Source of the DNA: Acidobacteriota bacterium
GTDB lineage: Bacteria > Acidobacteriota > Vicinamibacteria > Vicinamibacterales > 2-12-FULL-66-21
Length of the DNA: 49,472 nt
Direction: 5' to 3'
Assembly: GCA_016184105.1 (NCBI GenBank)
Contig: JACPDI010000005.1
Span: 1 to 49,472, forward strand
Position 1 is the first letter of the stretch. The number at the start of each line of letters is the position of its first letter. This document shows, piece by piece, positions 7,130-23,132 of the stretch. The notes below the pieces were generated by a model. The model did no database searches, was not told the origin of the DNA, and worked only from the letters and a program-made list of their open reading frames with translations. The position numbers and the translations under genes are program-made.

Positions 7130-8614
7130 TCAGTGCCCGAGCACGAGCTTCGCCAGTGGATACCCGACCAGCGCCAGCAGGAGCGTGTGCAGCAGGAACA
7201 GCAGCGCCCCGTGCCGCACCATCGTCCGCACGCGAAGGAAACCTGATCCCGCGACGATCGCGTTGGTCGTCGTGCCTGACGGCAGGAGATGCGCCAGCGA
7301 CGTGCCCATTCCCAGGATGATACCCAGTGCGGCCGGATCTCCCACACCGAGGCTGCTGCTCAACGTCAGACCGAGCGGCACGAAGATGGCGAGCGTCACC
7401 ATATTGGAAATGACGCTCGTCACGAGGATGACGGCGCCGCACAGGATCAGGACGAACATCGTCTCGGGAAGATGCCCGAGCAACGGTTCGAGCGTGTTCC
7501 TCACGTAGCCCGGCACCCCCGTCGCCTCCTCGCCCACGGCGATTCCCAGCGCCATGACCCCGCCAATGAACAGCACCAGGCTCCAGTCCACCCCGCGCAG
7601 CCACTCCTCCCAGGTCAGCACGAAGCGCCGCTTCGGATCGGGGACGGGGGTCAGGCACATGCCCAGCGGAACGAGCAAAGCCGGAACGGTGAGGTGAAGT
7701 CTGCTCTGCGCGATCGCCGCGATGTCGGGGGACAGCAGCATCCGCGCGGCGTCGGGCGCGAACCACAGCGCGACAGCCACGCCGACCCAGGCCAGGGCGC
7801 GCCGCTCGGCCACGGGCATGGGGCCGAGGCGCCGCCGTTCGGCACTGATATGGTCGCTCAGGTGGGGTCCACCGAGCGTGCCGGAGCCGTGCGGTACCGC
7901 CAGCCAGAGGAGCGCAATTGCCGAAGCCATCAGAAGCAGTGCGAGCCCCGATCCAATCGCCGTCCATTGCAGGAACGTGACGGTGGTGCCCGTGGCGGCC
8001 GCGACCAGTCCGATCGTCGGCGCATTCGTGCCGTTGCCGACCGGCGTGATCAGGCCGCCGATGTTGGCCGCCCATGCAATGCCGAGCGTGTTTGCCTCCA
8101 CCAGCGGGTCCGCGTGGTCGATCTTCAGCAGCTCGTAGATCTTCACGGCCAGCGAAAGCCAGACCACGGCCACCACGGTGTTGGCCATCACGCCGCTCAT
8201 CAGTGTTGCCGAGATGAGGAACATCGTCATGAAGCGCACCGGGTGGCCGCGCACCCAGCGCACGTCCAGGAGCGCCAGCGCGAACCGGCGGTTCACGCCG
8301 GTGGCATCGAGCGCCGCCCCCAGGCCGAAGGTCCCGATCACGAACCACAGCAGCCAGCTGTTGGAATGGGCGAACGCGCCGGCGAGACTGAGCGCCCCCG
8401 ACAGCACGCCCGCCGCAAGCATTGCCAGCGTGGTGAACGCAGCAGGCAACGGTGTGGCGACCCACCAGATGACCGCGAAGGCGAGCAGGCCCAGACGGGC
8501 CATGCCCACCTCCGTGATCGGCGCCGGCGGGGGGAGGAGAAGGCCGCCGGCAACCGCCGCAAGGCCGCCCAGGATCCCCGGCAGCGCGGAACGGCCGAGT
8601 GCGGGCGCAGTCAC
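7130..8614 (-). CDS. DASS/SLC13 family anion transporter
   Basis: A 494-residue polytopic inner-membrane protein of the divalent anion:Na+ symporter family. The two repeat signatures are visible: MANTVVAVV with AANIGGLITPVGNGTNAP in the first half and SNMVTLAIFVPL with LLPSGTTTNAI in the second, which form the Na+ and carboxylate sites in family members such as VcINDY. The start is GTG 8614, overlapping the aldolase stop as GTGA. Its position between a sugar-acid aldolase and an amidohydrolase suggests import of an organic acid, perhaps a 2-keto-3-deoxy acid or aldonate; that substrate is inferred, and DASS proteins more commonly carry C4/C6 dicarboxylates. Confidence 0.85.
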   Translation of the reverse strand: MTAPALGRSALPGILGGLAAVAGGLLLPPPAPITEVGMARLGLLAFAVIWWVATPLPAAFTTLAMLAAGVLSGALSLAGAFAHSNSWLLWFVIGTFGLGAALDATGVNRRFALALLDVRWVRGHPVRFMTMFLISATLMSGVMANTVVAVVWLSLAVKIYELLKIDHADPLVEANTLGIAWAANIGGLITPVGNGTNAPTIGLVAAATGTTVTFLQWTAIGSGLALLLMASAIALLWLAVPHGSGTLGGPHLSDHISAERRRLGPMPVAERRALAWVGVAVALWFAPDAARMLLSPDIAAIAQSRLHLTVPALLVPLGMCLTPVPDPKRRFVLTWEEWLRGVDWSLVLFIGGVMALGIAVGEEATGVPGYVRNTLEPLLGHLPETMFVLILCGAVILVTSVISNMVTLAIFVPLGLTLSSSLGVGDPAALGIILGMGTSLAHLLPSGTTTNAIVAGSGFLRVRTMVRHGALLFLLHTLLLALVGYPLAKLVLGH

Positions 8615-9528
8615 GCGCGCTGTCCGGCCCAGCGAAACGCGAACAGCTGCAAGCCGCCCCGCAGCGCGCGGATCTCGGCGATGTCCACGTCGTCGAGCGA
8701 GCGGGTCGGATGCCGGACGGCGGGCGACGCGATCACCCCCGCATCGAACAGGTTGCGCTTCATGACGGCAACCCCCAGGCCGGGTTGCAGCTCATACCGG
8801 ATCAAGGGAAGCGCCCGCGCGAACTGGTCGCGCGCAGACGAGTGATCGCCGCGTTGATACGAATCCCAGATGGCGCGGAAGATGTCCGTCATGTCCGAGC
8901 CCGGCATCGTGCCCACCGCCCCACGGGCGAGTTCCTCCAGGAAGAAATTCCCGTTCAGGCCGCCGAACAGCGTCAGGCGGTCGCCGGCCAGCGCACGGAG
9001 CCTGGACACTTTCGGCGTGGTGGGCGGGGCCTCCACTTTCACGAGGCGAACGTTCTCAAGTTCCAGCGCCATGCGCGCCAGCAGGTCGGCACCCATTGGG
9101 AGCTGCGTCATGAGCGGCGCGTCCTGCACCATCACCGGTATGCGCACGGCGTCGGAAATGGCGCGAAAGTAACGGAAGATGCCCTCGGCGTCGGGCTTCA
9201 CGTAATAAGGGGGGAGCACCATCAGCGCGTCAGCCCCCATCGCCTCCATGTCGCGGCTGATCGCCACCGCCACGTCGGTTCCGGTGTGGCCGCTGCTGAC
9301 CACGAGCGGCACGCGGCCGTCCACCTCCCGCACGATGACCTCAAGCAGAGTGCGGCGCCCCGATTCGGAGAGGGCATATCCTTCGCTTGCGTTCCCGAAC
9401 AGCCCCAGGCCATGCGCCCCCGCATCAATCAGGAAGCGGACAAGTCGCCGCTGGCTCTCCAGATCGAGAGCGCCGTCGTCCCGGAACGTGGTGTTGATGA
9501 TGGGAAACACGCCGTGGAAACGCGTCAC
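8611..9528 (-). CDS. DHDPS/KDG-aldolase family lyase
   Basis: A 305-residue class I (Schiff-base) lyase of the DapA/N-acetylneuraminate lyase family, TIM-barrel fold. It has GNASEGY (46-51, in place of the GTTGE loop), PPYYVKP (106-112) and the Schiff-base lysine in LVKVEAP (K164). The position equivalent to the catalytic tyrosine of DapA (usually LYNVP) reads VQDAP, so Tyr is replaced by Gln at about 135, which argues against a true DapA. Context suggests a 2-keto-3-deoxy acid aldolase or dehydratase giving pyruvate or a semialdehyde. GTG 9528 has a GGAGGGATCA site and overlaps the GntR stop as GTGA; its own TGA overlaps the transporter start. Confidence 0.8.
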   Translation of the reverse strand: MTRFHGVFPIINTTFRDDGALDLESQRRLVRFLIDAGAHGLGLFGNASEGYALSESGRRTLLEVIVREVDGRVPLVVSSGHTGTDVAVAISRDMEAMGADALMVLPPYYVKPDAEGIFRYFRAISDAVRIPVMVQDAPLMTQLPMGADLLARMALELENVRLVKVEAPPTTPKVSRLRALAGDRLTLFGGLNGNFFLEELARGAVGTMPGSDMTDIFRAIWDSYQRGDHSSARDQFARALPLIRYELQPGLGVAVMKRNLFDAGVIASPAVRHPTRSLDDVDIAEIRALRGGLQLFAFRWAGQRA

Positions 9529-10274
9529 TGATCCCTCCCGCCGCTTCCCGGCGCGTGAGGCCTCACGGCGCGCCGCAGATCTTCAATGAGGTTCTCGGCC
9601 GCCCGCCCGATGTGCTGCATCAACGCCCCGCGCAACCTTCCGGCATCGCGACCCTTCAAGGCGTCGACGATCTCGCGGTGTTCGGCCTTCTCTTCGGCCA
9701 GCCGGGACGCCCACCGATCGTGGCTGCGGTGAATCCGCGCAATCTTGATGTGGGCGTTCAGGCTCTCGTAAAGCTGAATCAGGCGGCGGTTCCCCGAGCG
9801 CTCGACGATGTAACGGTGAAAATCCGAATTGGTGCGCTCGTGCGCAATGCGGTCACCTTCGGTGACCATCGGCCGCTCGAGTATCGCGAGCATCCGTTCG
9901 AGCCGGTCCAGTTCGTCCCCGTTCAAGCGCCCCATCGCCTTTTCACCGGCCACCACTTCGAGGGCGGCGCGCAGCTCGAATGTTTCGGCCACATCCTCCG
10001 GGGAAATGTCGGTCACGAAGGTGCCGCTCCGCGGGCGAATTTCCACCAGACCTTCGGACGCCAGCTTGTTGAGCGCCTCCTTCACGGGAGTCAGGCTGAC
10101 GTTGAGCGAGCGTGCCAGGTCGAGGACGTTCAGCCGTTCACCAGGCAGAAACACCTGGGTCATGATGGCCTGCAGGAGACTCTGGTAGGCCGCGTCGCTG
10201 GCCCTCTCCCGGTGCACCGGCACAAGTCCTCCCGCGCTTTGCGGAACCCGCCGTCTCTTCATCGTTGTTGACAT
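9525..10274 (-). CDS. GntR/FadR-type transcriptional regulator
   Basis: A 249-residue regulator: winged helix-turn-helix at about 25-90 (NVSLTPVKEAL in the recognition helix) and an FCD ligand-binding domain at about 98-230. The FCD metal/ligand set is present: D151 and H153 in NSDFHRY, H199 in EHREIV and H221 in LMQHIG. FCD regulators commonly sense sugar acids or other carboxylates. It is first gene of the left-hand unit and faces the TonB-receptor operon across an AT-rich control region, so it probably represses both. ATG 10274 lacks a clear ribosome site; ATG 10262 in frame is an alternative, also without one. Confidence 0.85.
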   Translation of the reverse strand: MSTTMKRRRVPQSAGGLVPVHRERASDAAYQSLLQAIMTQVFLPGERLNVLDLARSLNVSLTPVKEALNKLASEGLVEIRPRSGTFVTDISPEDVAETFELRAALEVVAGEKAMGRLNGDELDRLERMLAILERPMVTEGDRIAHERTNSDFHRYIVERSGNRRLIQLYESLNAHIKIARIHRSHDRWASRLAEEKAEHREIVDALKGRDAGRLRGALMQHIGRAAENLIEDLRRAVRPHAPGSGGRDQ

Positions 10275-10456
10275 TTCAGATGATAAATATCAGATGTTGT
10301 GGAGTCATTTGTTAGTCAACTTATTCCAGTAAAATTATCCAAAATATGACGTATGATGACAACTGAAATTTTTTACTTTACATAAAGAATCGCCTCAACT
10401 ATGCTCCGCGGGTCAGGGCCGGGTGGCCGGCTTCGACTTTCTCCTCGAGGTGAGCG
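10275..10456. promoter_or_regulatory. Divergent control region of sugar-acid locus
   Basis: A 182-base gap between divergent GntR and TonB-receptor genes, unusually AT-rich for this window. On the plus strand ATGACA (10356-10361) and TACATA (10379-10384) are 17 bases apart, a weak sigma70 match. TTGTTAGTCAA near 10309-10319 differs by one base from the TNGTNNNACNA form seen at many FadR-type sites. The plus gene has GAGGTGAG ahead of ATG 10457. Assignment as a regulated bidirectional promoter rests on layout more than on motif strength. Confidence 0.5.
10281..10292. promoter_or_regulatory. Candidate GntR operator palindrome
   Basis: TGATAAATATCA is a perfect palindrome with 5-base arms (TGATA/TATCA) and an AA centre, flanked by a direct repeat of CAGATG on either side. 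It sits 6 bases upstream of the GntR ATG, where binding would block its own translation or transcription start. An autoregulatory operator is the simplest reading; no homologous site set was available to test it. Confidence 0.4.
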
Positions 10457-13400
10457 ATGAAGGTACCGCCTCTCTGCCGGGCCGGCGCGGCGCTGGCGTG
10501 GATCGCGATAGCGTGCACGGCCGTCGTGCACGCACAGGGGCTGCAGAACGCGGTCGTCGGTCGCATTGTCGATAGTTCGGGTGCCGTGCTGCCGGGCGTC
10601 ACCGTGACTGTGACCAACGTCGGCACCGGCGTGGAGCGGACTGTCCAGACCGGCTCCGCCGGGGATTATGTGGCTCCTTCCCTCGTGGCGGGCAACTATT
10701 CCGTTCGGGCGGAAATTCCCGGCTTCAAGGCTGAAGTCAGGCGCGGCGTCGTCGTCCGAACCGATGCATCGACGCGCGTCGATTTCACACTCGAGATCGG
10801 CGGGCAGCAGGAAGTCGTGGAGGTCACGGCCAGGGCCGCCGATACGATCCTGCGAACCGAAGACGCCAGCCTGGGTTCCGTGCTCGGTGAATCCCAGATC
10901 GACGCCCTTCCCGTCAAGAACCGGAACTTCATGGCTCTGGCGCAGATCGTGCCCGGGGCAACCGAGTCCCAGGTCGGCAACCAGAACACCCTCGGTCGCG
11001 CCCAGCCGCTGAACCTCTCGGTGCACGGGCAGCGGCATTTCGACAACAACATCCGGATCGACGGGGTGAGTATCATTGCCGGCTTCGTCAATGCCAGCAC
11101 CTTCATTCCATCGCTGGAGTCGCTGAAGGAAGTCAGCGTGCAGACCGGCCAGTACTCGGCTGCGTATGGCATGTACTCGGGCGCGCAAGTGGACAGGACA
11201 TGATCGTCAAGTCCGGGCAGAACGAATTCCACGGCAACGTGTTTGGCAACCTCCGCCATGACGCTTTGAACGCGAGCGACTATTTCGAACAGGATGAGAA
11301 GTCGCCGTTCAGTCACGGCCAGTACGGCGCCACGCTGGGGGGGCCCATCAAGAGGAACCGCGCCTTCTTCTTCGTGGGGTGGGAGGGCAACCGGCTGCGC
11401 AGGAGAGCGACCGGGCAGGCGACCGTGGCAACCGACCGCATGCGTAACGGCGATTTCTCCGAGCTCGCGGCCCCGATCCGGGACCCGTTCACGGGAGCTC
11501 GGTTCAGCGGCAATGTCATCCCGGCCAACAGGCTCTCTCCGCAGGCGCAGCTCCTGCTCGACTTCATCCCGCACGCGGACCTCGGCGTTCTCGTCTCCAA
11601 CTATTTCGGCGAAACCAGCTGAACCCGAATTTTCAGAGCATCGGCCAGCCCGAGAACCAGAATTACGTGCTCGGCTATACCAAGACGTTCGGCTCGCGCG
11701 TGGTGACGGAGGCGAAAATCTCGTACGTGCGGGAGTCGAGCCCGAACCAGACGGGTCGCGAAGGCGCCGACATCGACCCTCTGCGCGACTTCGGCATCAG
11801 TGGCCTCAATTTCGACGAGCCGCTGCTGCGCGGCATCCCGAACGCCGGCATCAGCGGATACATGGGAACCGGAGAGACGTTCGCCAACGCGAAGCTGCTG
11901 TATCGGAGCCCCGCGGTGCAGAGCCACACGATGCTGGATCTGGCAGGGCATTCACTGAGATTTGGAGCGGAAGCGTTCCGTCGCTACCAGGACTTTACGA
12001 CGATTAACGCCTCGAACCAGGGCAGCTTCAGCTTCACCGGACAGCTCACCGGCAACGCATTCGCCGACTTCATCCTCGGCCTGCCCACGCGAACCGACCG
12101 CATACCCTTCCTGCTCTCCTCCGAGCTGCAGCAGAATCACTTCCATAGCTACGTTCAGGATGACTGGAAGCTGTCCTCGAACGTGACCTTCAACCTGGGG
12201 CTGCGCTACGAATACGCGGGGGTGTACCGCGACAGGCTCGGCAACACCACGAACTTCGACTTCGATACGCTCACCTTCTTTCCGGATCCGGGAACGGACG
12301 GGGCGCTCAACGACCCCAGTCACGATCTGGCGCCGAGGCTGGGCGTCGCATACCGCTGGGGCGGGAGCACGGTCATCCGCGGCGGGTACGGTCACTATCT
12401 CACGCAGCCGACGATGGCCAACGTGTCGCTCATCAACCGCAACCCGCCGCGAAGCCGCCAGGACACGTTCAACACGAATCTGGCGAACCCCGATCTCACG
12501 CTCGCCAACGGCTTCCTGGACGGCCGATTGGGGGCGACGCCGCCGCCGACGCTCACGACCGTTCCCCGCGACTACGGTCCGGGCCGCGCACAGGTCTGGA
12601 GCCTGGGCGTGCAGCACCAGCTGCCGGGGGACTGGGTGGCCGAGATGAGCTACGTCGGCTCGACGACGAATGATTTGGACAGCGCATACACGCGCAACAC
12701 GCCGCCGCCGGGGCCGGGCCCGGTGCAGGCCCGCCGGCCGAATCCCGCTTTCGGAGACGTCCGCGTGTTCGCGTCGGAGGCCGAGGCCTCCTACGACGGT
12801 GTGGACTTCCGCATTCAGAATGTCGGCTGGCACGGCCTCAATATCCTCTCGAGCTATACGTACTCCAGATGCATCGATACGAAGAGTTCGCCCGCCACCA
12901 GCACGGTGGGAACCGAGGACCAGGAACCGCAGAACCAGCTGGATCGCTTCGATGGACAGCGCGGACGGTGCGCGATCGACTTCACGCACCAGTACAAGCT
13001 GAATCTCATTTACGCGCTTCCGCTGGGTGAGCGCCTCACCGGCATCGCCGGCGCGTTCCTGAAGGGCTGGCAGCTTTCGGCGAGCGTGAACCTCCATACC
13101 GGAGCGCCCTTCACGGTCATCATGAGCGGCAATCCCGCGAACACGTCCCGCGGCACCATCCGGCCAGACCTTATCGGCGATCCAAACGACGGCCCGAAGA
13201 CGACAGCGCAGTGGTTCAACACGGGCGCCTTCGCCGCACCGGCGCGTTTCGCCTACGGAAGCGCCGGACGCAACATCGTCGTCGGGCCGCCCACGAAGCT
13301 GGTCGATCTCGGCCTGCGTAAGCAGGTACGTCTAGGGGGAGGCCGGTCGCTGGAGGTCCGCATCGACGCCTACAACGCCTTCAACACCCCGCAGTTCGGA

Positions 13401-13496
13401 ATTCCCGGCCGCGTGTTCGGGACTCCGCAGTTCGGCCGGATCACGAGCGTCGGATCGCCGCGGGAGATTCAGCTGGGGCTCCGGCTCGCGTACTGA
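10457..13496 (+). pseudogene. Oar-type TonB-dependent receptor, two frame lesions
   Basis: An outer-membrane receptor: signal peptide (1-27, ending VVHAQ), carboxypeptidase-regulatory-like beta-sandwich (about 30-115), plug domain (KNRNFMALAQIVPG, IRIDGVSII) and a 22-strand-type barrel ending VRIDAYNAFNTPQFG...LRLAY. The frame breaks twice. At 11191-11200 the unit GGACA is duplicated; removing one copy restores QVDMIVKSGQNE. At about 11619 one base is missing; restoring a C gives ETSLNPNFQS. With both repairs the gene is 1012 codons, a normal Oar-like length. It heads the right-hand operon, 14 bases before the small AtzG-like gene, and should take up the locus substrate or an oligomer of it. 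Whether the lesions are biological or sequencing errors is unresolved. Confidence 0.8.
11191..11200 (+). repeat. 5-bp tandem duplication causing frameshift
   Basis: GGACAGGACA is two copies of a 5-base unit. Deleting one makes the two halves of the TonB-receptor frame join in register, so the duplication is the first lesion of that gene. Confidence 0.7.
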
Positions 13497-13510
13497 CGCA
13501 CCCGGAGATC

Positions 13511-13762
13511 ATGGGAAGCGACCAGACTCGCCGCCGTTTTCTGACCGCGTTGACCGCCGTTGGCACCCTCGCGCCGTTCTGCGAGGTGCTCGCGGGCGGC
13601 GAGAGACAGGTCGCTTCCCGGCCCGTCGACGCGCTGGGGCTTGATTCCGCCCAGCGGGCCGATCTCGAGGGCTTCGCCCAGCCCGTGCTCGAGGAGGCGG
13701 CCCTGCTCGAGGAGCTCGCCCTCGATGACTGTGATCCGGCGTTCGTGTTCGTTCCGCGCTGA
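13511..13762 (+). CDS. Tat-tagged AtzG/GatC-like small protein
   Basis: An 83-residue protein placed directly before the amidase. Residues 5-27 form a twin-arginine signal (TRRRFLTALTAVG). The rest (about 37-83), with VDALGLDSAQRADLEG and a C-terminal PAFVFVPR, resembles the small AtzG/DUF4089 and GatC-like partners of amidase-signature enzymes, which end in a PxPVFxP-type motif and help fold or position the amidase. The ATG has GGAG 6 bases upstream and the stop is 30 bases before the amidase GTG. The amidase itself has no signal, so it could be carried out by this Tat-tagged partner. Similarity was judged by eye on a short protein, so the family call is moderate. Confidence 0.55.
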   Translation: MGSDQTRRRFLTALTAVGTLAPFCEVLAGGERQVASRPVDALGLDSAQRADLEGFAQPVLEEAALLEELALDDCDPAFVFVPR

Positions 13763-13792
13763 AGACCGAGCGCCCCGAGCCGAGGGAAAATC

Positions 13793-16408
13793 GTGAGCAG
13801 CGAGCTGTGCTTTCTGTCGATCGCCCAGGCGTCGGACCTCATGCGACGGCGGAAATTGTCCCCCCTGGAATTGACCGAGGCGCACCTCTCGCGGATCGAC
13901 GCGCTCGATGGTGCGCTCGGTAGTTTCATCACCGTGACGCGTGAAGAGGCGCTCCGCGAGGCGCGCGACGCCACCTCCCGAAGACCGCCGGCCGCCGGGC
14001 CGCTGTTTGGAATTCCGGTCACGCTCAAGGACAACATCGCGACGGCCGGGGTGCGGACGACCGCCGCGTCGCGCGTACTGAAGGATTGGGTTCCCGAAAG
14101 GGACGCGTCGCTGGTGACGCGCCTCCGCGCGGCCGGCGCGGTCCTCCTGGGAAAGGTGGCGCTCTCCGAGTTCACGTTCGCCGGCGGGTCGACCGGAGAC
14201 GATTTCGTGAAGGCGCCACGGAACCCGTGGAACCTCGAACGCTCGGCGGGCGGATCGAGCAACGGGTCCGCCGTTGGCGTGGCGGCGGGGCTCGCGATGG
14301 CTTCGGTCGGCAGCGATTCCGGAGGATCGATCCGCATCCCGGCGGCGTTTTGCGGCGTGACGGGCTTGAAGCCGACATACGGACGGATCGGACGGTCGGG
14401 GGTCATCCCGCTCAGCTACTCGATGGATACCATGGGACCGATCGCCCGGGAGGTTCGCGACACCGCTCTCGTGCTGGAGGTCCTCGCCGGGTTCGATCCG
14501 GCTGATGCCACAACCAGCCGGCTGCCGGTTCCGCACTATGGAGGCGCGACCTCGAAACCGGTTCGCGGGCTGCGCATCGCTACCTGCCCGGATTACGTCG
14601 AGGCAGTCGGGTTGGAGTCGGATGTCGAGGAGGCGATCGCCGGAGCGGTCGAGGTGTTCAGGTTCCTCGGCGCGTCGATCCGGGAAGCTTCGGTCCCGCA
14701 TCTGACGTACGCGTGCGCTGCGGGCTACAACACGATCATGCGGATCGAGGCGTTCGAGTACCACTTCCCGAACCTCCGCGATCGGCGCGGGCAGTATGGG
14801 GCGGCTTTCAGGAATATCGCCAGGGGCGGTTTTCTGACCGCGCGCGATTACCTCAGAGCGCAAAAAGCCAGAACACTGATCTGCGGAGAGTTGCATCAGG
14901 CCTTCGAGCAGGTTGACGCGTTGATTCTGCCGGTGACCCCTGCCACGCCGGGCGGAGGCTCCTACGGGAACGAAGGAACGGACGCAAAGGTGAGGAAGGG
15001 CAGCTTCGCGCACGGCGCCGCGTATACGGCGCCGTTCAACCTGACCGGCAGTCCAGTGCTCGCCCTGCCGTGCGGCTTCACGAAAGACGGGATGCCGATC
15101 GGCCTGCAGCTCGTTGGCCGGTCATTTCAGGAAGAGACGCTCATCGCCGCCGGGCACCAGTACCACGCCCGCACCAGACTGGCGCCGCTCCGCATTCGCG
15201 GCGTCGAGGGCATTGTCATCCGTGTCCCGCACGACACCGTGGCTGAGAACGACGTCGTGGAACTGGCGCCGCCGGGAAGCACCACGCCCGGTCGCGGTCT
15301 GTGGAACCGGCTCGACCACGCCAGTCCGACACGGCAGCGGGGCTACGAGCAGGCCACGCTCGTCAAGATCACGACAGATGAGGGTCTCGTGGGCTGGGGC
15401 GAATGCCATGCCCCGTCCGCGCCACACGTGCACCAGCGCATCATCAGCGACCTCCTTGCGCCGCTTCTTGTCGGCCGTGACGCGCGGCAGGTGGAGGCGC
15501 TCTGGGAGCGGATGTACACGAGCGAGCGCGTGCGCGGGTACTCGACGGGCTCACATCTTGAAGCGATGGCGGGGGTGGACCTCGCGCTCTGGGATCTGCT
15601 GGGCAAGTGGGCGAACGTGCCGGTATACCAGCTGCTGGGCGGCCGCTATCGCGCAGAGATCTCCACGTACGCCACGCTTTCTGGAACGTACACGGGACGG
15701 CACGCGGGACAAAACGCAGCGGACCGGGCCAACGCGATGGTGGACGCGGGGTTCCGCGTGCTCAAGATGGCGCTCCGGACCGGCCCGGACAGCGCAGAGT
15801 TCGCCCTGGTTCGCGAGATTTCGAGCGCGGTGGCCCCCAGGGCGCAGCTTGCCGTCGATGCACTCGGCACCTTCACGCTTGCCGAGGCAACCCGCATGGG
15901 ACGCGAACTCGATCGACTCGGCCAGATTGCGTGGTTTGAAGACCCGTTGCTGCCCGAGGAGATGTTGCACTACCCCCACCTGACGAGAACCGTGGATACC
16001 GCGATTTGCGCCGGGGAGGCGCTGAGCAACCGGTTTCAGTTCCGCGACCTGCTGGCCGCGCGCGGCGTCGACATCGTCAATCCGGATATCTGCCGCTGCG
16101 GCGGCATCACCGAAGCGCGCCGGATTGCCTGGCTGGCCGACATCTTCGGCGTGATCTGGACCCCGCATGTCAGCACGGGGACGGCGCCCTACATGGCGGC
16201 CTCGATTCACATGGCCGTGTCTTCCCCCAACGCCGTCATGATGGAAGTGTACGACGGTTACAAACACGACGGTCCTCTTGGCAACGTGCTGCTTCGCGAA
16301 CCTCTCGACATGAAACCGGGTGTCGCGCGTGTGCCCGAGCGCCCCGGACTCGGCGTGGATTTCGACGAGGCCGCACTGGCCCGCGTGATCGTGAGCGGAA
16401 ACCGATGA
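13793..16408 (+). CDS. Amidase-enolase superfamily dehydratase fusion
   Basis: One uninterrupted 871-residue frame holds two complete enzymes. Residues 1-462 are an amidase-signature hydrolase with the Ser-cisSer-Lys triad: K79 in VTLKDN, the GGSSNGS loop at 153-159 and S179 in SDSGGSIR. Residues about 464-871 are a mandelate-racemase/galactonate-dehydratase-type enolase: K658, metal ligands D689 (VDALG), E716 (FEDP) and E742 (GEALS), and the D765 (NPD)/H792 (TPHVS) pair. The amidase ends HARTRLAPL and the enolase begins RIRGVEGIVIR with no linker, stop, ribosome site or ATG between them (near base 15182). The start is GTG 13793 after AGGGA; the stop overlaps the next ATG. It probably deamidates and then dehydrates one acid. 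Fusion by deletion of a stop and of the dehydratase leader is likely; a sequence error is possible. Confidence 0.8.
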   Translation: MSSELCFLSIAQASDLMRRRKLSPLELTEAHLSRIDALDGALGSFITVTREEALREARDATSRRPPAAGPLFGIPVTLKDNIATAGVRTTAASRVLKDWVPERDASLVTRLRAAGAVLLGKVALSEFTFAGGSTGDDFVKAPRNPWNLERSAGGSSNGSAVGVAAGLAMASVGSDSGGSIRIPAAFCGVTGLKPTYGRIGRSGVIPLSYSMDTMGPIAREVRDTALVLEVLAGFDPADATTSRLPVPHYGGATSKPVRGLRIATCPDYVEAVGLESDVEEAIAGAVEVFRFLGASIREASVPHLTYACAAGYNTIMRIEAFEYHFPNLRDRRGQYGAAFRNIARGGFLTARDYLRAQKARTLICGELHQAFEQVDALILPVTPATPGGGSYGNEGTDAKVRKGSFAHGAAYTAPFNLTGSPVLALPCGFTKDGMPIGLQLVGRSFQEETLIAAGHQYHARTRLAPLRIRGVEGIVIRVPHDTVAENDVVELAPPGSTTPGRGLWNRLDHASPTRQRGYEQATLVKITTDEGLVGWGECHAPSAPHVHQRIISDLLAPLLVGRDARQVEALWERMYTSERVRGYSTGSHLEAMAGVDLALWDLLGKWANVPVYQLLGGRYRAEISTYATLSGTYTGRHAGQNAADRANAMVDAGFRVLKMALRTGPDSAEFALVREISSAVAPRAQLAVDALGTFTLAEATRMGRELDRLGQIAWFEDPLLPEEMLHYPHLTRTVDTAICAGEALSNRFQFRDLLAARGVDIVNPDICRCGGITEARRIAWLADIFGVIWTPHVSTGTAPYMAASIHMAVSSPNAVMMEVYDGYKHDGPLGNVLLREPLDMKPGVARVPERPGLGVDFDEAALARVIVSGNR

Positions 16409-17730
16409 CCACAATTCTCACGCGACGTGAACTCCTCGGTGGGACCGGCCTGGCCGCTCTCGCGTCAGGGGCGCCCGGCGCCTCCGCCCGCGCGGCGCAG
16501 AGCGCGCGGGGCCAGGTGTCCGACTTGCGGCCGCTGATTATCGAGCGCGTCGAGCCGATCGTCATCAGAACGCCACCCGATCGGATTGGCTTCGACGAAC
16601 CGCTGATGCAGCCTCGCGTCGGGGCCGTGACCGGGGGGCCCGGCATGTGGAATCGCCTCGACCACGCCACGCCCACACGCTTCAAGGGCTACGAGCAGGC
16701 CACGCTCGTCAAGATCACCACCACGGAGGGACTCGTCGGCTGGGGCGAATGCCACTCGCCGTCGGCCCCGCGCATGCACCAGCGCATCCTCAGCGATCTG
16801 TTCGCGCCACTGTTGCGCGGGCAGGACGCTCGGTGGATCAATCCTCTCTGGGAGCGGATGTTCTCCACCGAGCGCGTGCGCGGGTACTCCACGGGTGCAC
16901 ACTTCGAGGCGCTCGCCGGCGTAGACCTCGCGCTCTGGGATCTCCTGGGCCGCGCGATGGGGGTTCCTGTCTATCAGCTCCTCGGCGGCAAATATCGCGA
17001 CGGCATACCGCTCTACACCGGGATAGGCGGAGCGACCGCCGAGGCGCTCGTCCAATCCGCCGAGCGGGCGGTGGCGAGCGGCCTGAAGGTCGTCAAGATG
17101 GGATTCCGAAAGGGAGAGAACACGAGCGACGTGGAACGAGTCGAGGCGGTGGCCGCAGCGATGCGGCCCCACGGGCAGGTGTGTCTCGACTCGCTCGGGG
17201 CGTTCAAGCTGTACGAGGCCATTCAGGTCGGCCGGATTTTCGATCGGATCGGCAACATCGGCTGGTTCGAGGATGCGCTGCTGCCAGACGACTGGCCGGC
17301 CTACACCGAACTGGCGGCGGCGCTTGACACCCCGGTGTGCGTCGGCGAGATGCTGTCGAACCGGTTCCAGTTCCGCGACCTGCTCACCGCGCGCGGCGCC
17401 GACATCATCAACCCCGATGTGTGCCGCGCCGGCGGGATCAGCGAGTGCCAGCGCATCGCGGCGCTCGCGCATGCCTACGGTGCCCTCTGGACGCCTCACG
17501 TCAGCACCGGCACAGTCCTGTACTTTGCCGCCTCGCTGCACCTGGCAGTGGCCACGGCGAACTGCGTCATCATGGAGGGGGGCGGCAAGCTTTCCGGACC
17601 GCTCGGCAATGCGCTGGTTCGAACGCCGTTCCGGGTCGACCAGGGAACGGCGTACGTGCCCGAAGCGCCCGGCTTCGGCGTGGAGTGGAACGAAGAGGCG
17701 CTCGCCCGGGTCACCGCGAGAGAGGCATGA
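16405..17730 (+). CDS. Tat-exported galactonate dehydratase-like enolase
   Basis: A 441-residue mandelate racemase/muconate lactonizing enzyme family member, paralogous to the enolase half of the preceding fusion. It has a Tat signal (LTRRELLGGTG, residues 5-15; cleavage near SARA), a cap domain and a barrel with K about 231 (VVKMGF), ligands D about 262 (CLDSLG), E about 288 (FEDAL) and E about 314 (GEMLS), and the D about 338/H about 365 pair (NPDVC, TPHVST). Such enzymes dehydrate aldonates to 2-keto-3-deoxy acids. It shares a 32-base identical run with the fusion gene (15341-15372 and 16687-16718). ATG 16405 overlaps the previous stop and its TGA overlaps the aldolase ATG. Export of a sugar-acid dehydratase is unusual. 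Confidence 0.8.
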   Translation: MTTILTRRELLGGTGLAALASGAPGASARAAQSARGQVSDLRPLIIERVEPIVIRTPPDRIGFDEPLMQPRVGAVTGGPGMWNRLDHATPTRFKGYEQATLVKITTTEGLVGWGECHSPSAPRMHQRILSDLFAPLLRGQDARWINPLWERMFSTERVRGYSTGAHFEALAGVDLALWDLLGRAMGVPVYQLLGGKYRDGIPLYTGIGGATAEALVQSAERAVASGLKVVKMGFRKGENTSDVERVEAVAAAMRPHGQVCLDSLGAFKLYEAIQVGRIFDRIGNIGWFEDALLPDDWPAYTELAAALDTPVCVGEMLSNRFQFRDLLTARGADIINPDVCRAGGISECQRIAALAHAYGALWTPHVSTGTVLYFAASLHLAVATANCVIMEGGGKLSGPLGNALVRTPFRVDQGTAYVPEAPGFGVEWNEEALARVTAREA

Positions 17731-18371
17731 GCGGCGAGGATCCCGGGAGCGATGTGCGGGCCGCCATCGACGCGTGCGGAGTCATTGCCATTCTGCGCGG
17801 CGGATACCTGGAGCGTCTCCCGGGCATTATCGGCGCCATCCACGCGGGCGGCGTGCGGGCGGTGGAGATCAGCCTGAACTCACCAGACGCGTTGCTCCAG
17901 ATCTCGCGCGCCGTGCGGCACGCGTCGGGTCGCCTCGTGGTGGGAGCGGGAACCGTGCTCACGTGCGACGAGGTCAAGAAGGTCCATGACGCCGGTGCTC
18001 GATTTACCGTGTCTCCGGTTGTCGATCCGGACGTGATATCGACCGCGCTGCGGCTCGGGCTGACTCCGATTCCGGGAGCCTACACGCCCACGGAGGTGCG
18101 ACTGGCCGCAGGCGCCGGTGCCGCGGCGGTGAAGCTGTTCCCGGCCCGGACGCTCGGCGCGGACTTCGTTCGAGCGCTCCTCGTGCCCTTCCCCGACGTG
18201 CGGCTGGTCCCAACCGGGGGCGTCACGCTCGAGGACGCGCACCGCTTCGCCAGGGCCGGCGCCTGGGCGGTCGGCATCGGAACGCCCCTGCTCGGCGATG
18301 GAACCGATGCGGCCGGGAACCTTGAACAACGGGCGCGCAGTTTCGTGAGCGCGATGAGACCGCCGGCCTGA
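17727..18371 (+). CDS. dgoA: 2-keto-3-deoxy-6-phosphogalactonate aldolase type
   Basis: A 214-residue KDPG/KDPGal-family class I aldolase, cytoplasmic, cleaving a 2-keto-3-deoxy-6-phospho acid to pyruvate and glyceraldehyde 3-phosphate. Visible residues: E47 in AVEISLN, TVSPVVDP (94-101), IPGAYTPTE (115-123) and the Schiff-base K136 in VKLFPA. Length is usual for the family. ATG 17727 overlaps the previous stop (ATGA), and the stop overlaps the kinase start. The neighbouring DgoK-like kinase makes KDPGal more likely than KDPG as substrate, which is why dgoA is used as the symbol; the stereochemistry is not proven by sequence. Confidence 0.85.
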   Translation: MSGEDPGSDVRAAIDACGVIAILRGGYLERLPGIIGAIHAGGVRAVEISLNSPDALLQISRAVRHASGRLVVGAGTVLTCDEVKKVHDAGARFTVSPVVDPDVISTALRLGLTPIPGAYTPTEVRLAAGAGAAAVKLFPARTLGADFVRALLVPFPDVRLVPTGGVTLEDAHRFARAGAWAVGIGTPLLGDGTDAAGNLEQRARSFVSAMRPPA

Positions 18372-19342
18372 TGCCGACCGCACCGATCGCGATGCTCGAC
18401 GTCGGCTCCACCAACAGCAGGGCCTGGCTCGTCTCGGGCGGGACGATCCTCCGGCGCGCCGCTGCCTCCGTGGGCGTGCGCGACAGCGTCCGGACCGGGA
18501 GCACCGCACTCCTGAGGCAGACGGTTCGCCAGCTGATCGAACAGATCTCGGCAGATCATCCTGTCGGCCTCGTCGCAGCCGCCGGGATGATCACGTCGCC
18601 GCTCGGACTCGCGGACGTACCTCATGTCGCTGCGCCCGCTTCGGCGCAGGACCTGTCGGCAGCCGCGGTCATCCTGCATCCGACCGACATTACACGTCTG
18701 CCGATGTTGCTCGTTCCCGGAGTACGGACCGGCGCGGCAGCGGCTTCCGTGGAGCAGCTGGACGTGATGCGGGGCGAGGAAACGCTGGCCGTGGGCCTGA
18801 CCGACAGCGGATTGCTGCGGCGCGGGGGTCTGCTGCTTACGGCCGGCTCGCACTGGAAACTCATCTGGACGGACGCCGATGGACGAGTGGCCGGCAGCCG
18901 TACATCACTCGGCGGAGAGATCGTGCACGCCGTCCAGACCGCGACGCTGCTCAACGCGTCGCTGCCTTCGCAGCCGATGCACACCTGTGACCGCGAGTGG
19001 CTCGAGGCGGGCGCGGCCGCGGCGCGGAAATGGGGACTGCCGAGAGCGATGTTTCAGGTGCGTCTGCTCGATCAATCTGCGGCAGCGGGTGCCGCCGAAC
19101 GTCTGAACTGGCTCGTGGGCGCGTGCGTGGCGGTCGATCTGGACGGTCTGACGGCGTCGGGCCGCCTTGGAGCGGGCGAGGCCGTTCTGGTTACCGGGCC
19201 CGCGGCCGTGCCGCACGCCTGGAGGCACCTCCTGCAGATCGCCGGGTGTCGGGCAGAGGTCCTCGACAGCCATGCGACCGAACAGGCCTTTGTGCGGGGA
19301 CTGAGCACTGTCGTGGATGCGCGGAGGCGCGAGTTGCGATGA
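18371..19342 (+). CDS. dgoK: 2-dehydro-3-deoxygalactonokinase
   Basis: A 323-residue member of the DgoK family (ASKHA fold), phosphorylating 2-keto-3-deoxygalactonate at O6 with ATP. Hallmarks: DVGSTNSRAWL (10-20, phosphate loop), AAGMITSPLGL (about 69-79), VPGV followed by DVMRGEE (about 130-136) and LLTAGSHWK. The length matches the family. ATG 18371 shares its first base with the aldolase stop (TGATG) and the stop overlaps the next ATG, so the gene is deep inside the operon. With the aldolase it forms the lower De Ley-Doudoroff steps. Confidence 0.88.
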   Translation: MPTAPIAMLDVGSTNSRAWLVSGGTILRRAAASVGVRDSVRTGSTALLRQTVRQLIEQISADHPVGLVAAAGMITSPLGLADVPHVAAPASAQDLSAAAVILHPTDITRLPMLLVPGVRTGAAAASVEQLDVMRGEETLAVGLTDSGLLRRGGLLLTAGSHWKLIWTDADGRVAGSRTSLGGEIVHAVQTATLLNASLPSQPMHTCDREWLEAGAAAARKWGLPRAMFQVRLLDQSAAAGAAERLNWLVGACVAVDLDGLTASGRLGAGEAVLVTGPAAVPHAWRHLLQIAGCRAEVLDSHATEQAFVRGLSTVVDARRRELR

Positions 19343-19779
19343 CGCGGACGGCTTGCCTGGTGATGGTCGGCCTCATCTTCTTCCCCTGGAGCGGGCGCAG
19401 CGCGCTCGCGGCTGATGAAGGCGACGCCGTTCGGGGACTGCAGCTGAAGCGGTTCCAGGCGCTGACGCGCCAGGACTACGGCGCGCTGCAGGATCTGCTG
19501 GCGGAGGATATGGTCTATACCCACTCCAACGGAAGAGTGGACTCGAAGACCTCGTATCTTCAGCCCCTGCTGTCAGGGGCAACCCGCTACGAGGACTTCG
19601 CGCTCGACGAGGTGCGGAGCAGGGTTTACGGCACAACCGCCATCCTGACCGGTCGCGTACGAACGGCTGCACGTGTCGCGGGCGAGCGACGCACGAACGA
19701 CCTCCGCTTCATCGAAGTATGGGCGAAGACCGGTGACGGCTGGAAAATGGTCGCCTGGCAGGCGACGCGGATTCCGTAG
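19339..19779 (+). CDS. Secreted NTF2-like (DUF4440/SnoaL-type) protein
   Basis: A 146-residue protein with a signal peptide (MTRTACLVMVGLIF, cleavage near ALAAD) and one cone-shaped NTF2-like domain of DUF4440 type (LKRFQALTRQDYGAL, VYTHSNGRVDSK, WKMVAWQATR at the end). Family members bind or act on small ligands, some as isomerases or cyclases, but most are uncharacterised. ATG 19339 overlaps the dgoK stop (ATGA), so it is the last gene of the operon and may act in the periplasm with the exported dehydratase. No catalytic residues can be assigned. Confidence 0.75.
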   Translation: MTRTACLVMVGLIFFPWSGRSALAADEGDAVRGLQLKRFQALTRQDYGALQDLLAEDMVYTHSNGRVDSKTSYLQPLLSGATRYEDFALDEVRSRVYGTTAILTGRVRTAARVAGERRTNDLRFIEVWAKTGDGWKMVAWQATRIP

Positions 19780-19831
19780 AGGCCGCCGGCGGACGCTGAA
19801 GGCGTGTGCAACGATGAGCGGCGCGAGCTTG

Positions 19832-19840
19832 TGCTATACT
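19832..19840 (+). promoter_or_regulatory. Extended -10 promoter for rbp
   Basis: TGCTATACT combines the TGN extension with a good -10 hexamer; no convincing -35 is present 17 bases upstream, as usual for extended -10 promoters. Transcription would begin near 19847, leaving a leader of about 173 bases before the RRM gene at 20020. Confidence 0.5.
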
Positions 19841-19951
19841 CCCTCATCGGATCTTGCCCCGCACTCTGACATCTGTAGGCGAATCGAGCCTTCCTGACTC
19901 GCTCCTCCTTTAGTCCTGCTCAGCTACGAGACGAAATCCGCCCGGCGTCCA

Positions 19952-19965
19952 TCCGGACGTCCGGA
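19952..19965 (+). other. Self-complementary element in rbp leader
   Basis: TCCGGACGTCCGGA is a perfect 14-base palindrome in the predicted leader, followed at 19969-19999 by further short inverted GC-rich stretches. It could fold in the mRNA or dimerise. Leaders of cold-shock genes often carry such structure; a thermosensor role here is speculation. Confidence 0.35.
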
Positions 19966-20019
19966 CACGACGTCGCTTTGGCGACGCGCTTGTCGCATGT
20001 TGCGGCAGAGGAGAAGTTC

Positions 20020-20331
20020 ATGAATCGGAAGTTGTACGTCGGAAACCTCTCGTACGAAACGGGAGAAACCGAGCTCCAGGAATTGTTCGCACGCGCGGGC
20101 ACCGTCGAAACGGTGAAAGTGATGCGCGACATGGCCACCGGACGCGCCCGCGGGTTTGCGTTCGTGGAAATGAGCACGGGCGGCGAGGCGCAGCAGGCCA
20201 TCACCCAGCTGAATGAAACAGAGCTCGGGGGCCGTCGCCTTGTCGTCAACGAAGCGAGGCCGAAAGAAGGCGGGTCGGGCGGATTCGGCGGGGGCGATTC
20301 CCGCGGCCGCCGGTCCGAGCCTCGCTGGTAA
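20020..20331 (+). CDS. Single-RRM RNA-binding protein
   Basis: A 103-residue RNA-binding protein of the bacterial glycine-rich RRM (Rbp) type. RNP2 is LYVGNL at 5-10 and RNP1 is RGFAFVEM at 44-51; the tail from about 85 is Gly/Ser/Arg-rich (GGSGGFGGGDSRG). The start at ATG 20020 is set by AGAGGAGAAG 6 bases upstream and by the conserved MNRKLYVGNL opening, although the frame is open further upstream. Such proteins are often cold-induced and bind structured RNA. It precedes a DEAD-box helicase, a functional match for RNA remodelling. Confidence 0.92.
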   Translation: MNRKLYVGNLSYETGETELQELFARAGTVETVKVMRDMATGRARGFAFVEMSTGGEAQQAITQLNETELGGRRLVVNEARPKEGGSGGFGGGDSRGRRSEPRW

Positions 20332-20340
20332 ACCCCGTGA

Positions 20341-20367
20341 GGGCGGAGCAGCCACGCTGCTCCGCCC
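20341..20367 (+). terminator. Hairpin after rbp
   Basis: A perfect 11-base stem (GGGCGGAGCAG with CTGCTCCGCCC) around a 5-base CCACG loop lies 10 bases after the rbp stop. It is followed by a C/T-rich tract, not a pure T run, so it may attenuate or protect the rbp mRNA while letting some transcription reach the helicase. Confidence 0.6.
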
Positions 20368-20418
20368 CACCCTCCTTCTGCGCCCACGACGGGCGCCAGA
20401 AACGCCGACAATATTCAC

Positions 20419-21627
20419 ATGCCGTTCTCGACACTCGGGCTTTCACCCGCGCTCTGTACTCCGCTCGCACGACTGGGCTACGACCATCCCACGCGCGTCC
20501 AGGCTGAATCGATCCCGGTGGTCCTCAGCGGCGCCGATCTCCTGGCGCGCGCGCAGACCGGGACCGGGAAGACCGCGGCGTTCGGCCTGCCGATGCTGCA
20601 CCGCTTGATGACGCGCAGCGCCGGCGCGCGTCGCGCTCCCCGCGGGCTGGTGCTCGTTCCCACGCGCGAGCTGGCGGTCCAGGTCCATCGCGCGCTCGCG
20701 GAGTACGGAGCCCCCGCGAACCTGCGCGTCACGGCCATCTTCGGCGGCGTGCCGATGCGCGCGCAGGTGCAGACGCTTCAGCGGGGCACCGACGTCGTGG
20801 TCGCCACGCCGGGCCGGCTGATCGATCACCTGCAACGCCGCACGGTGGATCTGACGAAGGTGGAGATCCTCACGCTGGACGAAGCGGACCGGATGCTGGA
20901 CATGGGGTTCCTGCCGCCGCTTCGCATCGTGGCCGCGGCGCTGCCGCGCACGCGGCAGACGCTGCTGTTTTCGGCCACGTTGCCCCCGGGCGTCGTGCGG
21001 CTCTCGAAAGAATTCACGCGCACGCCGGTTCACGTCGACGTGTCGGCCGGGCATGCCGTCGCGCCGACGGTGACCCATCGCATCCATCCGGTCGCCGACG
21101 ACCGCAAGCGCGACCTCCTGGTGCACGTCCTGAAACAGCCGCGCGGCGAGCAGGCGCTCGTCTTCTGCAAGACGAAGCGGGGGTCCGACCGGATTGGCGA
21201 CTGGCTCACCCGCGCCGGGATCGTGGCCGCGGTCATCCACGGCAACAAGAGCCAGGCGGTGCGGACCCGCGCGCTCGGTGATTTCAGGCAGGGCCGGGTG
21301 AGAGTCCTGGTCGCGACCGATATCGCCGCCCGAGGTCTCGACATCGCGGAGCTGCCGCTCGTGATCAATTACGACCTGCCGATGGTGGCCGAAGACTACA
21401 TCCACCGCGTCGGCCGCACCGGGCGCGCCGGGCGCGCCGGGGTGGCGGTCTCCCTCGTGTCGGGGGCCGACCGGAAACTCCTTCGCGACATCCAGCGGCT
21501 GCTGCCCATGCCGCCCGAGCAGGTCGTGGAAGGGTTCAGCGGTTCACAGCGAGACGGCCGGGCATGGCAGTCTCCTAGTCCTCGAACAAGTACCCCTCTC
21601 CGAGCGGGCACCAGAACACATCAATGA
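20419..21627 (+). CDS. DEAD-box RNA helicase, RhlE-like
   Basis: A 402-residue ATP-dependent RNA helicase. Motifs in order: Q motif region (GYDHPTRVQAESIP, 20-33), Walker A AQTGTGKT (45-52), PTRELAVQ, TPGRLIDH, DEAD at about 154-157 with RMLDMGF, SAT in FSATLP (about 184), ARGLDI, and HRVGRTGRAGR (about 329). The short C-terminus places it near RhlE. ATG 20419 has no strong ribosome site; the rbp gene ends 87 bases upstream with a hairpin between. Its last 53 bases overlap the convergent regulator's 3' end, and the final residues look non-conserved. Confidence 0.9.
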   Translation: MPFSTLGLSPALCTPLARLGYDHPTRVQAESIPVVLSGADLLARAQTGTGKTAAFGLPMLHRLMTRSAGARRAPRGLVLVPTRELAVQVHRALAEYGAPANLRVTAIFGGVPMRAQVQTLQRGTDVVVATPGRLIDHLQRRTVDLTKVEILTLDEADRMLDMGFLPPLRIVAAALPRTRQTLLFSATLPPGVVRLSKEFTRTPVHVDVSAGHAVAPTVTHRIHPVADDRKRDLLVHVLKQPRGEQALVFCKTKRGSDRIGDWLTRAGIVAAVIHGNKSQAVRTRALGDFRQGRVRVLVATDIAARGLDIAELPLVINYDLPMVAEDYIHRVGRTGRAGRAGVAVSLVSGADRKLLRDIQRLLPMPPEQVVEGFSGSQRDGRAWQSPSPRTSTPLRAGTRTHQ

Positions 21628-22897
21628 CCTCGGCCATCGTCTTCGAGAACGGGCTGCGCGTCTGCCCGCGCAGCAGATGCGGCACGCTCGAATCGAGGTA
21701 ACACGAGTCGCCCGGGCGCAGGATGTCCTTCACCTGCTCGTCACCGACGAACGTGGTCAGCTCGAGCTCGCCGTCGAGGACATACACGAACTCCTGGCCG
21801 TGGTGCTCGTGCATCGTGAGGGTCTCGATGTCCACGTTGAGCAGCCGCAGCAGGTAGGGGTACATGCTGCGCCCCGGGTAGCCTTCCGAGAACGCCTGGC
21901 AGGTCTTTGATTTCGGCGCCGCCGGCCGTTCCACCGGCGTTCGCCGCGTGCGGCTCGGCTGCGCCGCGGTCTGATCCGCGCGCTGAACATAGTAATGCGG
22001 GCCGTTGCCCGCCGGCTGCCCGAGCAGCTCGCGCAGCGGTCTTCGATACAGCTTCGCGAGCGCGAGCATCAGATCGAGCGGCACCGGCCGATCGCCGCGC
22101 TCGATCTGCCGGAGCTGGCGCTCCGGCACGCTCACCATCTCCGCCACGCGCGGCTCCGGCCAGCCGTGCATCTCGCGCAGCAGCCTCAGCTTGTGCCCTG
22201 TCTGCTGCGCGACGTCCAGCCCGCGATCCTGCTGCACCTCGCTGATCGAGACTCCGAAGCCGGTCTTCGTCAGGCCGGAGAGGGAGCAGAACACCTGAAT
22301 GGTCTCGGCCGGTTCCTCGTCGAGCGACCGGAGCGCGTGGAGGAGATCCGATCGGAAATACACAGCGTCCCCCGCCGCCAACTTTTCGCGCACCACCCCG
22401 CCGGGCGTGTGAATCGACAACTCGATCCGCCCGCGCAGCACGAAGAGGAACTCCTCCTCATGCTGGTGGCTCCACTGCAGGGCGCCGACGGGGCCCGGCA
22501 AGATCCGCCCGAACGCCGGCTCCATGTGGCGGCCGACGAACAGATCGGCCAGCGGCGAGAGCCGGACGTCCGCGTGCCCCGCGCCGGTGCCCTCCGACGT
22601 GATTCCCGAAGGGGGCTTCGCGCGCGCATCCGCCTCACGCGTGATGTGGTACGGACGCCTGGTGTCGGTCGGAACGAAGTGATCCGGCGGCAGCCCGAGC
22701 GCCGCGGCGATCCGCAGCACCTGCCCGAGATCGATGACGTGAAGGCCGTTTTCGATTTCCGACAGCCTCGCGGTCGAAATCGACGACGCTTCGGCTAGAG
22801 ACCTCAGCGTGAGACCGCGGGCCTGCCGTTCCGTACGGATCCGCTCGCCGACACGCAGACCCTCGTAACTCACCAGGTGGGAGCTGTACACCGGCAT
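21575..22897 (-). CDS. Double HTH-cupin transcriptional regulator
   Basis: A 440-residue protein built as a tandem repeat: XRE HTH (about 13-75), cupin (about 120-210), second HTH (about 225-280) and second cupin (about 355-435). The first cupin has SHQHEEEF, the second MHEHHGQEF with VPHLLRG, both able to hold a metal or small ligand. Usual XRE-cupin regulators have one HTH and one cupin, so this is a within-gene duplication with diverged halves. The start at ATG 22897 is fixed by AAGGAGGG 8 bases upstream. It is divergent from the TonB receptor and probably controls it together with the aldehyde dehydrogenase and desuccinylase genes. Confidence 0.85.
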   Translation of the reverse strand: MPVYSSHLVSYEGLRVGERIRTERQARGLTLRSLAEASSISTARLSEIENGLHVIDLGQVLRIAAALGLPPDHFVPTDTRRPYHITREADARAKPPSGITSEGTGAGHADVRLSPLADLFVGRHMEPAFGRILPGPVGALQWSHQHEEEFLFVLRGRIELSIHTPGGVVREKLAAGDAVYFRSDLLHALRSLDEEPAETIQVFCSLSGLTKTGFGVSISEVQQDRGLDVAQQTGHKLRLLREMHGWPEPRVAEMVSVPERQLRQIERGDRPVPLDLMLALAKLYRRPLRELLGQPAGNGPHYYVQRADQTAAQPSRTRRTPVERPAAPKSKTCQAFSEGYPGRSMYPYLLRLLNVDIETLTMHEHHGQEFVYVLDGELELTTFVGDEQVKDILRPGDSCYLDSSVPHLLRGQTRSPFSKTMAEVIDVFWCPLGEGYLFED

Positions 22898-22914
22898 TCG
22901 CGAGCCCTCCTTGC

Positions 22915-22935
22915 CCGTGTTCAGAAAAAACACGG
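22915..22935. promoter_or_regulatory. Inverted repeat near regulator start
   Basis: CCGTGTT and AACACGG are perfect 7-base arms around CAGAAAA, 18 bases upstream of the HTH-cupin ATG. It may be an autoregulatory operator or a leader hairpin. Confidence 0.35.
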
Positions 22936-23010
22936 ATGAAGGTAATTTTTCAGATGTGTTCACCATAACAGCTAAAACCGGAAAAATCGAATAAATTTTT
23001 AGAATATTCC

Positions 23011-23038
23011 TTGACCGCCGGCTTCGCCGGTGTATATT
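23011..23038 (+). promoter_or_regulatory. Promoter with palindromic spacer for TonB receptor
   Basis: TTGACC and TATATT are separated by 16 bases. The spacer holds CCGGC-TTC-GCCGG (23018-23030), a perfect inverted repeat that would place a bound regulator between the -35 and -10. This suits repression, or MerR-like spacer control, by the divergent regulator. Confidence 0.55.
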
Positions 23039-23132
23039 TCGTCCCCTTAACGCCGCAGCCGCGCCAGCGCGCCCGACGTTCATCGTCACCGGTTCTGCCC
23101 TACTACTTGGCCACGCACGGAGGAGACCACTG

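Follow-up and report, generated by a model that had tools for sequence, protein, structure and literature searches.

Does the frame at 13793–16408 (+ strand) of contig JACPDI010000005.1, from an Acidobacteriota draft assembly (GCA_016184105.1), encode a genuine fusion of an amidase with an enolase-superfamily dehydratase, and if so, how did it arise and what would it do? We analyzed the first 49,472 nucleotides of the contig, referred to below as the window. The frame represents a real, well-formed pairing of two known enzyme families; the pairing is new, was found once, and its function is putative.

Two complete enzymes in one reading frame

The fusion gene comprised 871 open codons with zero internal stops and began at a GTG codon preceded by the purine-rich sequence GAGGGA. 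Pfam assigned its first half (aa 1–462; 13793–15178, +) to Amidase (PF01425, residues 26–450, 8.6e-109, 365 bits against a cut-off of 27), the profile being covered almost end to end, and its second half (aa 465–871; 15185–16408, +) to MR_MLE_N (520–616, 74.3 bits) and MR_MLE_C (642–860, 2e-54, 185 bits). In an alignment with 21 amidase relatives, K79, S155 and S179 (the Lys, cis-Ser, Ser triad) were invariant. The GGSSNGS motif occupied residues 153–159, with S155 as the cis-Ser; by family convention, S179 is the nucleophile. Alignment with 23 dehydratase relatives showed that K658, D689, E716, D765 and H792 were invariant and that E742 was Glu in all except two distant sequences with Asp. 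The set of the mandelate racemase (MR) subgroup, namely metal ligands D689, E716 and E742, the lysine K658 and the D765/H792 His-Asp pair, was complete. The preliminary description of this DNA had read the frame as a full amidase plus a full dehydratase and had named these motifs; the reading frame, Pfam, the alignments and a predicted structure agree with it, and every residue named was present and conserved in the relatives.

Like amidase-signature enzymes such as GatA, biuret hydrolase and peptide amidase, the first half has the whole fold and the triad, but its C-terminal tail is several residues shorter and runs into another enzyme. The second half has the whole fold and the catalytic set of the MR subgroup, but it sits behind an amidase and has no Tat leader. 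The clade of the amidase half reached no curated equivalog cut-off. Identity of the dehydratase half as galactonate dehydratase (DgoD, NF010624) was considered and rejected, as it scored 217.8 bits against an equivalog cut-off of 311; furthermore, at the second position past the first metal ligand, where DgoD has a catalytic His, the fusion and its near clade have leucine (Leu691). By sequence, the nearest solved relatives of this half were 4ggb/4hpn (a proposed galactarolactone cycloisomerase), and also 3sjn. In plant PHYLLO, menC, an enolase-superfamily part, is fused to other men genes, with no amidase-dehydratase pairing. Urea amidolyase is a fusion with an amidase-signature part, but its partner is not a dehydratase (PMC5770610). 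The papers searched yielded no account of an amidase-enolase fusion, in accord with the earlier statement that no characterized amidase-dehydratase fusion was known.

The junction

The junction (aa 463–465, LAPL-R region; 15179–15187, +) was placed by paralogue alignment and by an AlphaFold2 model, built from an alignment that left out rows from plasmid records. The model had a mean pLDDT of 86.8 and a pTM of 0.65, at which the relative placement of the two halves is not firm. A loop of about five residues separated the last amidase helix (447–461) from the first enolase strand (467–478); the junction peptide is HARTRLAPLRIRGVEGIV. Model residues 3–462 aligned to whole GatA-type amidases (2df4: Z 56.2, 1.7 Å, 448 residues) and residues 465–869 to whole enolase-superfamily proteins (2ppg: Z 47.7, 2.0 Å), the enolase matches beginning at about their first residue (4hpn: model 466–870 to 1–378). 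Because both halves cover whole solved folds, the junction is predicted to cost no core element; in the model, the join sits between two folds and is structurally clean. No in-frame internal start with a convincing ribosome site was found at the junction, so a single polypeptide is expected. Amidase relatives stop about 10 residues past the matching helix, often in WHxRxPPL, and the fusion is without most of this tail. On the dehydratase side, the junction lined up with the next gene just after its Tat leader, exactly as first described.

Gene neighborhood

The fusion gene was the first of four overlapping genes. Overlaps of one to four bases, as here, are typical of co-translated operons. The second gene (16405–17730, +), whose start overlaps the fusion stop (ATGA), encodes a tandem paralogue of the dehydratase half with 57% identity; as had been noted earlier, it carries a Tat-type leader (MTTILTRRELLGG...) with a twin-arginine motif. 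It is followed by a KDPG/KHG-type aldolase (17727–18371, +), overlapping the gene upstream, and by a member of the 2-keto-3-deoxygalactonokinase (DGOK) family (18371–19342, +), with a one-base overlap. Aldolases and kinases of these families act in De Ley-Doudoroff-type sugar-acid catabolism. Upstream of the fusion lay a broken TonB-dependent receptor split over three frames (10457–13496, +) and, on the minus strand, a GntR/FCD-type regulator (9525–10274) and a DHDPS-family aldolase/dehydratase (8611–9528).

Nearly all relatives in the clade of the fusion's dehydratase half, which has members in Bryobacterales and other Acidobacteriota, had Tat leaders, and most had no amidase nearby. Within the order to which the window belongs, no other dehydratase found was equally close. 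The window's two dehydratases grouped together with moderate support (86/89), as a tandem duplication would predict, but both sat on long branches.

Unfused relatives and search for other fusions

The nearest relative with both parts, Acidobacteria bacterium PMV_1.51 (L048), has them as separate genes in one cluster. This cluster resembles that of the window in its GntR regulator, amidase (61% identity), TonB receptor (57%) and dehydratase (56%), but the dehydratase keeps its Tat leader, and an intact TonB receptor lies between it and the amidase. The L048 amidase ends in ..GHQYQLATRWHLQRPPLDR followed by a stop codon, whereas the fusion reads ..GHQYHARTR/LAPLRIRG. Plasmids of Haladaptatus (NZ_CP119783) and Halomarina (NZ_CP100455) likewise have an amidase gene followed by two MR_MLE genes, with a DHDPS-family gene nearby; however, these genes are unfused, about 30–36% identical, and separated by tens of bases.

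The preliminary description had raised a search for other proteins with an amidase followed by MR_MLE domains. No fused homologue was found in approximately 800 genomes, most of them from Acidobacteriota. The sets that gave none were 60 relatives, 162 members of the order, 396 genomes drawn from the phylum and 257 from the order holding L051; the larger searches scored just the top 2 to 5 candidates of each genome, and in the class search the amidase half was the sole query. Nor was a fused homologue found in 72,556 plasmid records; the five long plasmid matches, three of which were inspected, were each annotated as an amidase plus a separate MR_MLE gene. The fusion is known from one draft genome of 69 contigs, the only genome of its genus in the collection searched. 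Homologues that always occur as two genes had been put forward as evidence against the fusion. All relatives found were indeed unfused, but this does not disprove the fusion itself; since every relative found is unfused, the fusion appears lineage-specific rather than false.

Origin and proposed function

Because L048 keeps the amidase and the Tat-dehydratase as separate genes, the fusion is most simply derived. The preliminary description had already proposed a deletion covering the stop codon of the amidase and the leader of the dehydratase, and L048 displays the corresponding two-gene state. The reading that we favor, and to which we give close to an even chance, is that a deletion produced a bifunctional polypeptide whose amidase and then dehydratase act on a sugar-acid compound, feeding the kinase and aldolase of the operon. 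In this lineage, a deletion would have fused two adjacent genes within an operon for sugar acids. Lost with it would be the stop codon and the final few residues of the amidase, the DNA between the genes, and the entire Tat leader of the dehydratase, itself one copy from the tandem duplication. The product would be one cytoplasmic polypeptide with two catalytically complete enzymes. The amidase half most probably hydrolyzes a sugar-acid amide or a similar compound, the dehydratase half would turn the freed acid into a 2-keto-3-deoxy acid, and the DGOK-type kinase and KDPG-type aldolase would break this acid down. The operon layout and families, together with the haloarchaeal order of amidase, MR_MLE and MR_MLE, make consecutive action on one compound likeliest. 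Substrate channelling between the halves, from amide to 2-keto-3-deoxy acid as the preliminary description suggested, is speculation. We regard it as rather unlikely that this is the first bifunctional amidase-dehydratase in the full sense, that is, a cytoplasmic enzyme converting a sugar-acid amide to a 2-keto-3-deoxy acid after a deletion relocated a Tat-exported dehydratase.

Provided that both halves are active, the fusion links an uncharacterized amidase with an uncharacterized clade of Tat-exported enolase-superfamily enzymes and predicts consecutive substrates for the two, to which the unfused pairs in L048 and haloarchaea also point. It would, in addition, clearly exemplify gene fusion through a deletion that took out an export signal.

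Signs of decay and alternative explanations

Compared with the L048 receptor, a single intact frame of 1101 aa, the TonB receptor of the window had two lesions: a 5-bp tandem duplication (GGACA) around 11190, and, around 11600, a deletion that shifts the frame and spans roughly 100 bases. With the adjacent receptor broken twice, which the preliminary description had missed, decay of the cluster is possible. The dehydratase half was off-family at 8 of 100 conserved sites, including S690A next to metal ligand D689, as against 5 of 97 in the paralogue and 0–2 in most others, while only 1 of 47 conserved sites was broken in the amidase half. These extra changes, in the dehydratase half and not in the amidase half, may reflect erosion or altered specificity. 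GC3 was about 0.79–0.87 over 7–23 kb (7130–23323), against mostly 0.87–0.94 beyond, which would fit a transferred segment without proving it; together with nearest relatives in another order, it suggests acquisition. The fusion may, though less probably, be fortuitous: in a cluster that is decaying and was probably transferred, a random in-frame deletion would have tethered the two enzymes without benefit, and one half would be drifting (likeliest the dehydratase, which the paralogue could back up). That no other genome searched retains the fusion is in keeping with this. However, all catalytic residues are kept in both halves, the amidase half is nearly unbroken at its conserved sites, and 871 codons remain open across a junction that falls between folds.

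It is improbable that the join is an error of assembly or consensus, or is carried by few cells, and that the true locus has two genes. The single occurrence in a 69-contig draft would be compatible with this, and an exact stretch of 33 bp common to both dehydratases can confuse assembly. Some 160 bp separate this stretch from the join, and a misjoin there would not produce the fusion; misassembly by this route was rejected. Moreover, the majority of the window's other long genes appear intact, and one would not expect a misjoin to land in frame and between folds. Activity of the halves on unrelated substrates, with fusion only equalizing their amounts or aiding oligomer assembly, is very unlikely: the amidase clade below every curated cut-off and the scarcity of amidases near dehydratase relatives would allow it, but L048 already has the amidase in the same cluster, and a comparable pairing is seen again in haloarchaea.

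Other gene clusters

A Streptomyces amidase/MR_MLE pair was not counted as support; it adjoins catA and looks like aromatic catabolism. In the loci L048–L107, a Bryobacterales clade of MR-type enolases with Tat leaders was often located near GntR and DHDPS-family genes. Two haloarchaeal plasmids (L108, 8001–11813; L109, 5998–9782) carried tandem amidase, MR_MLE and enolase-like genes, possibly an uncharacterized catabolic cassette.
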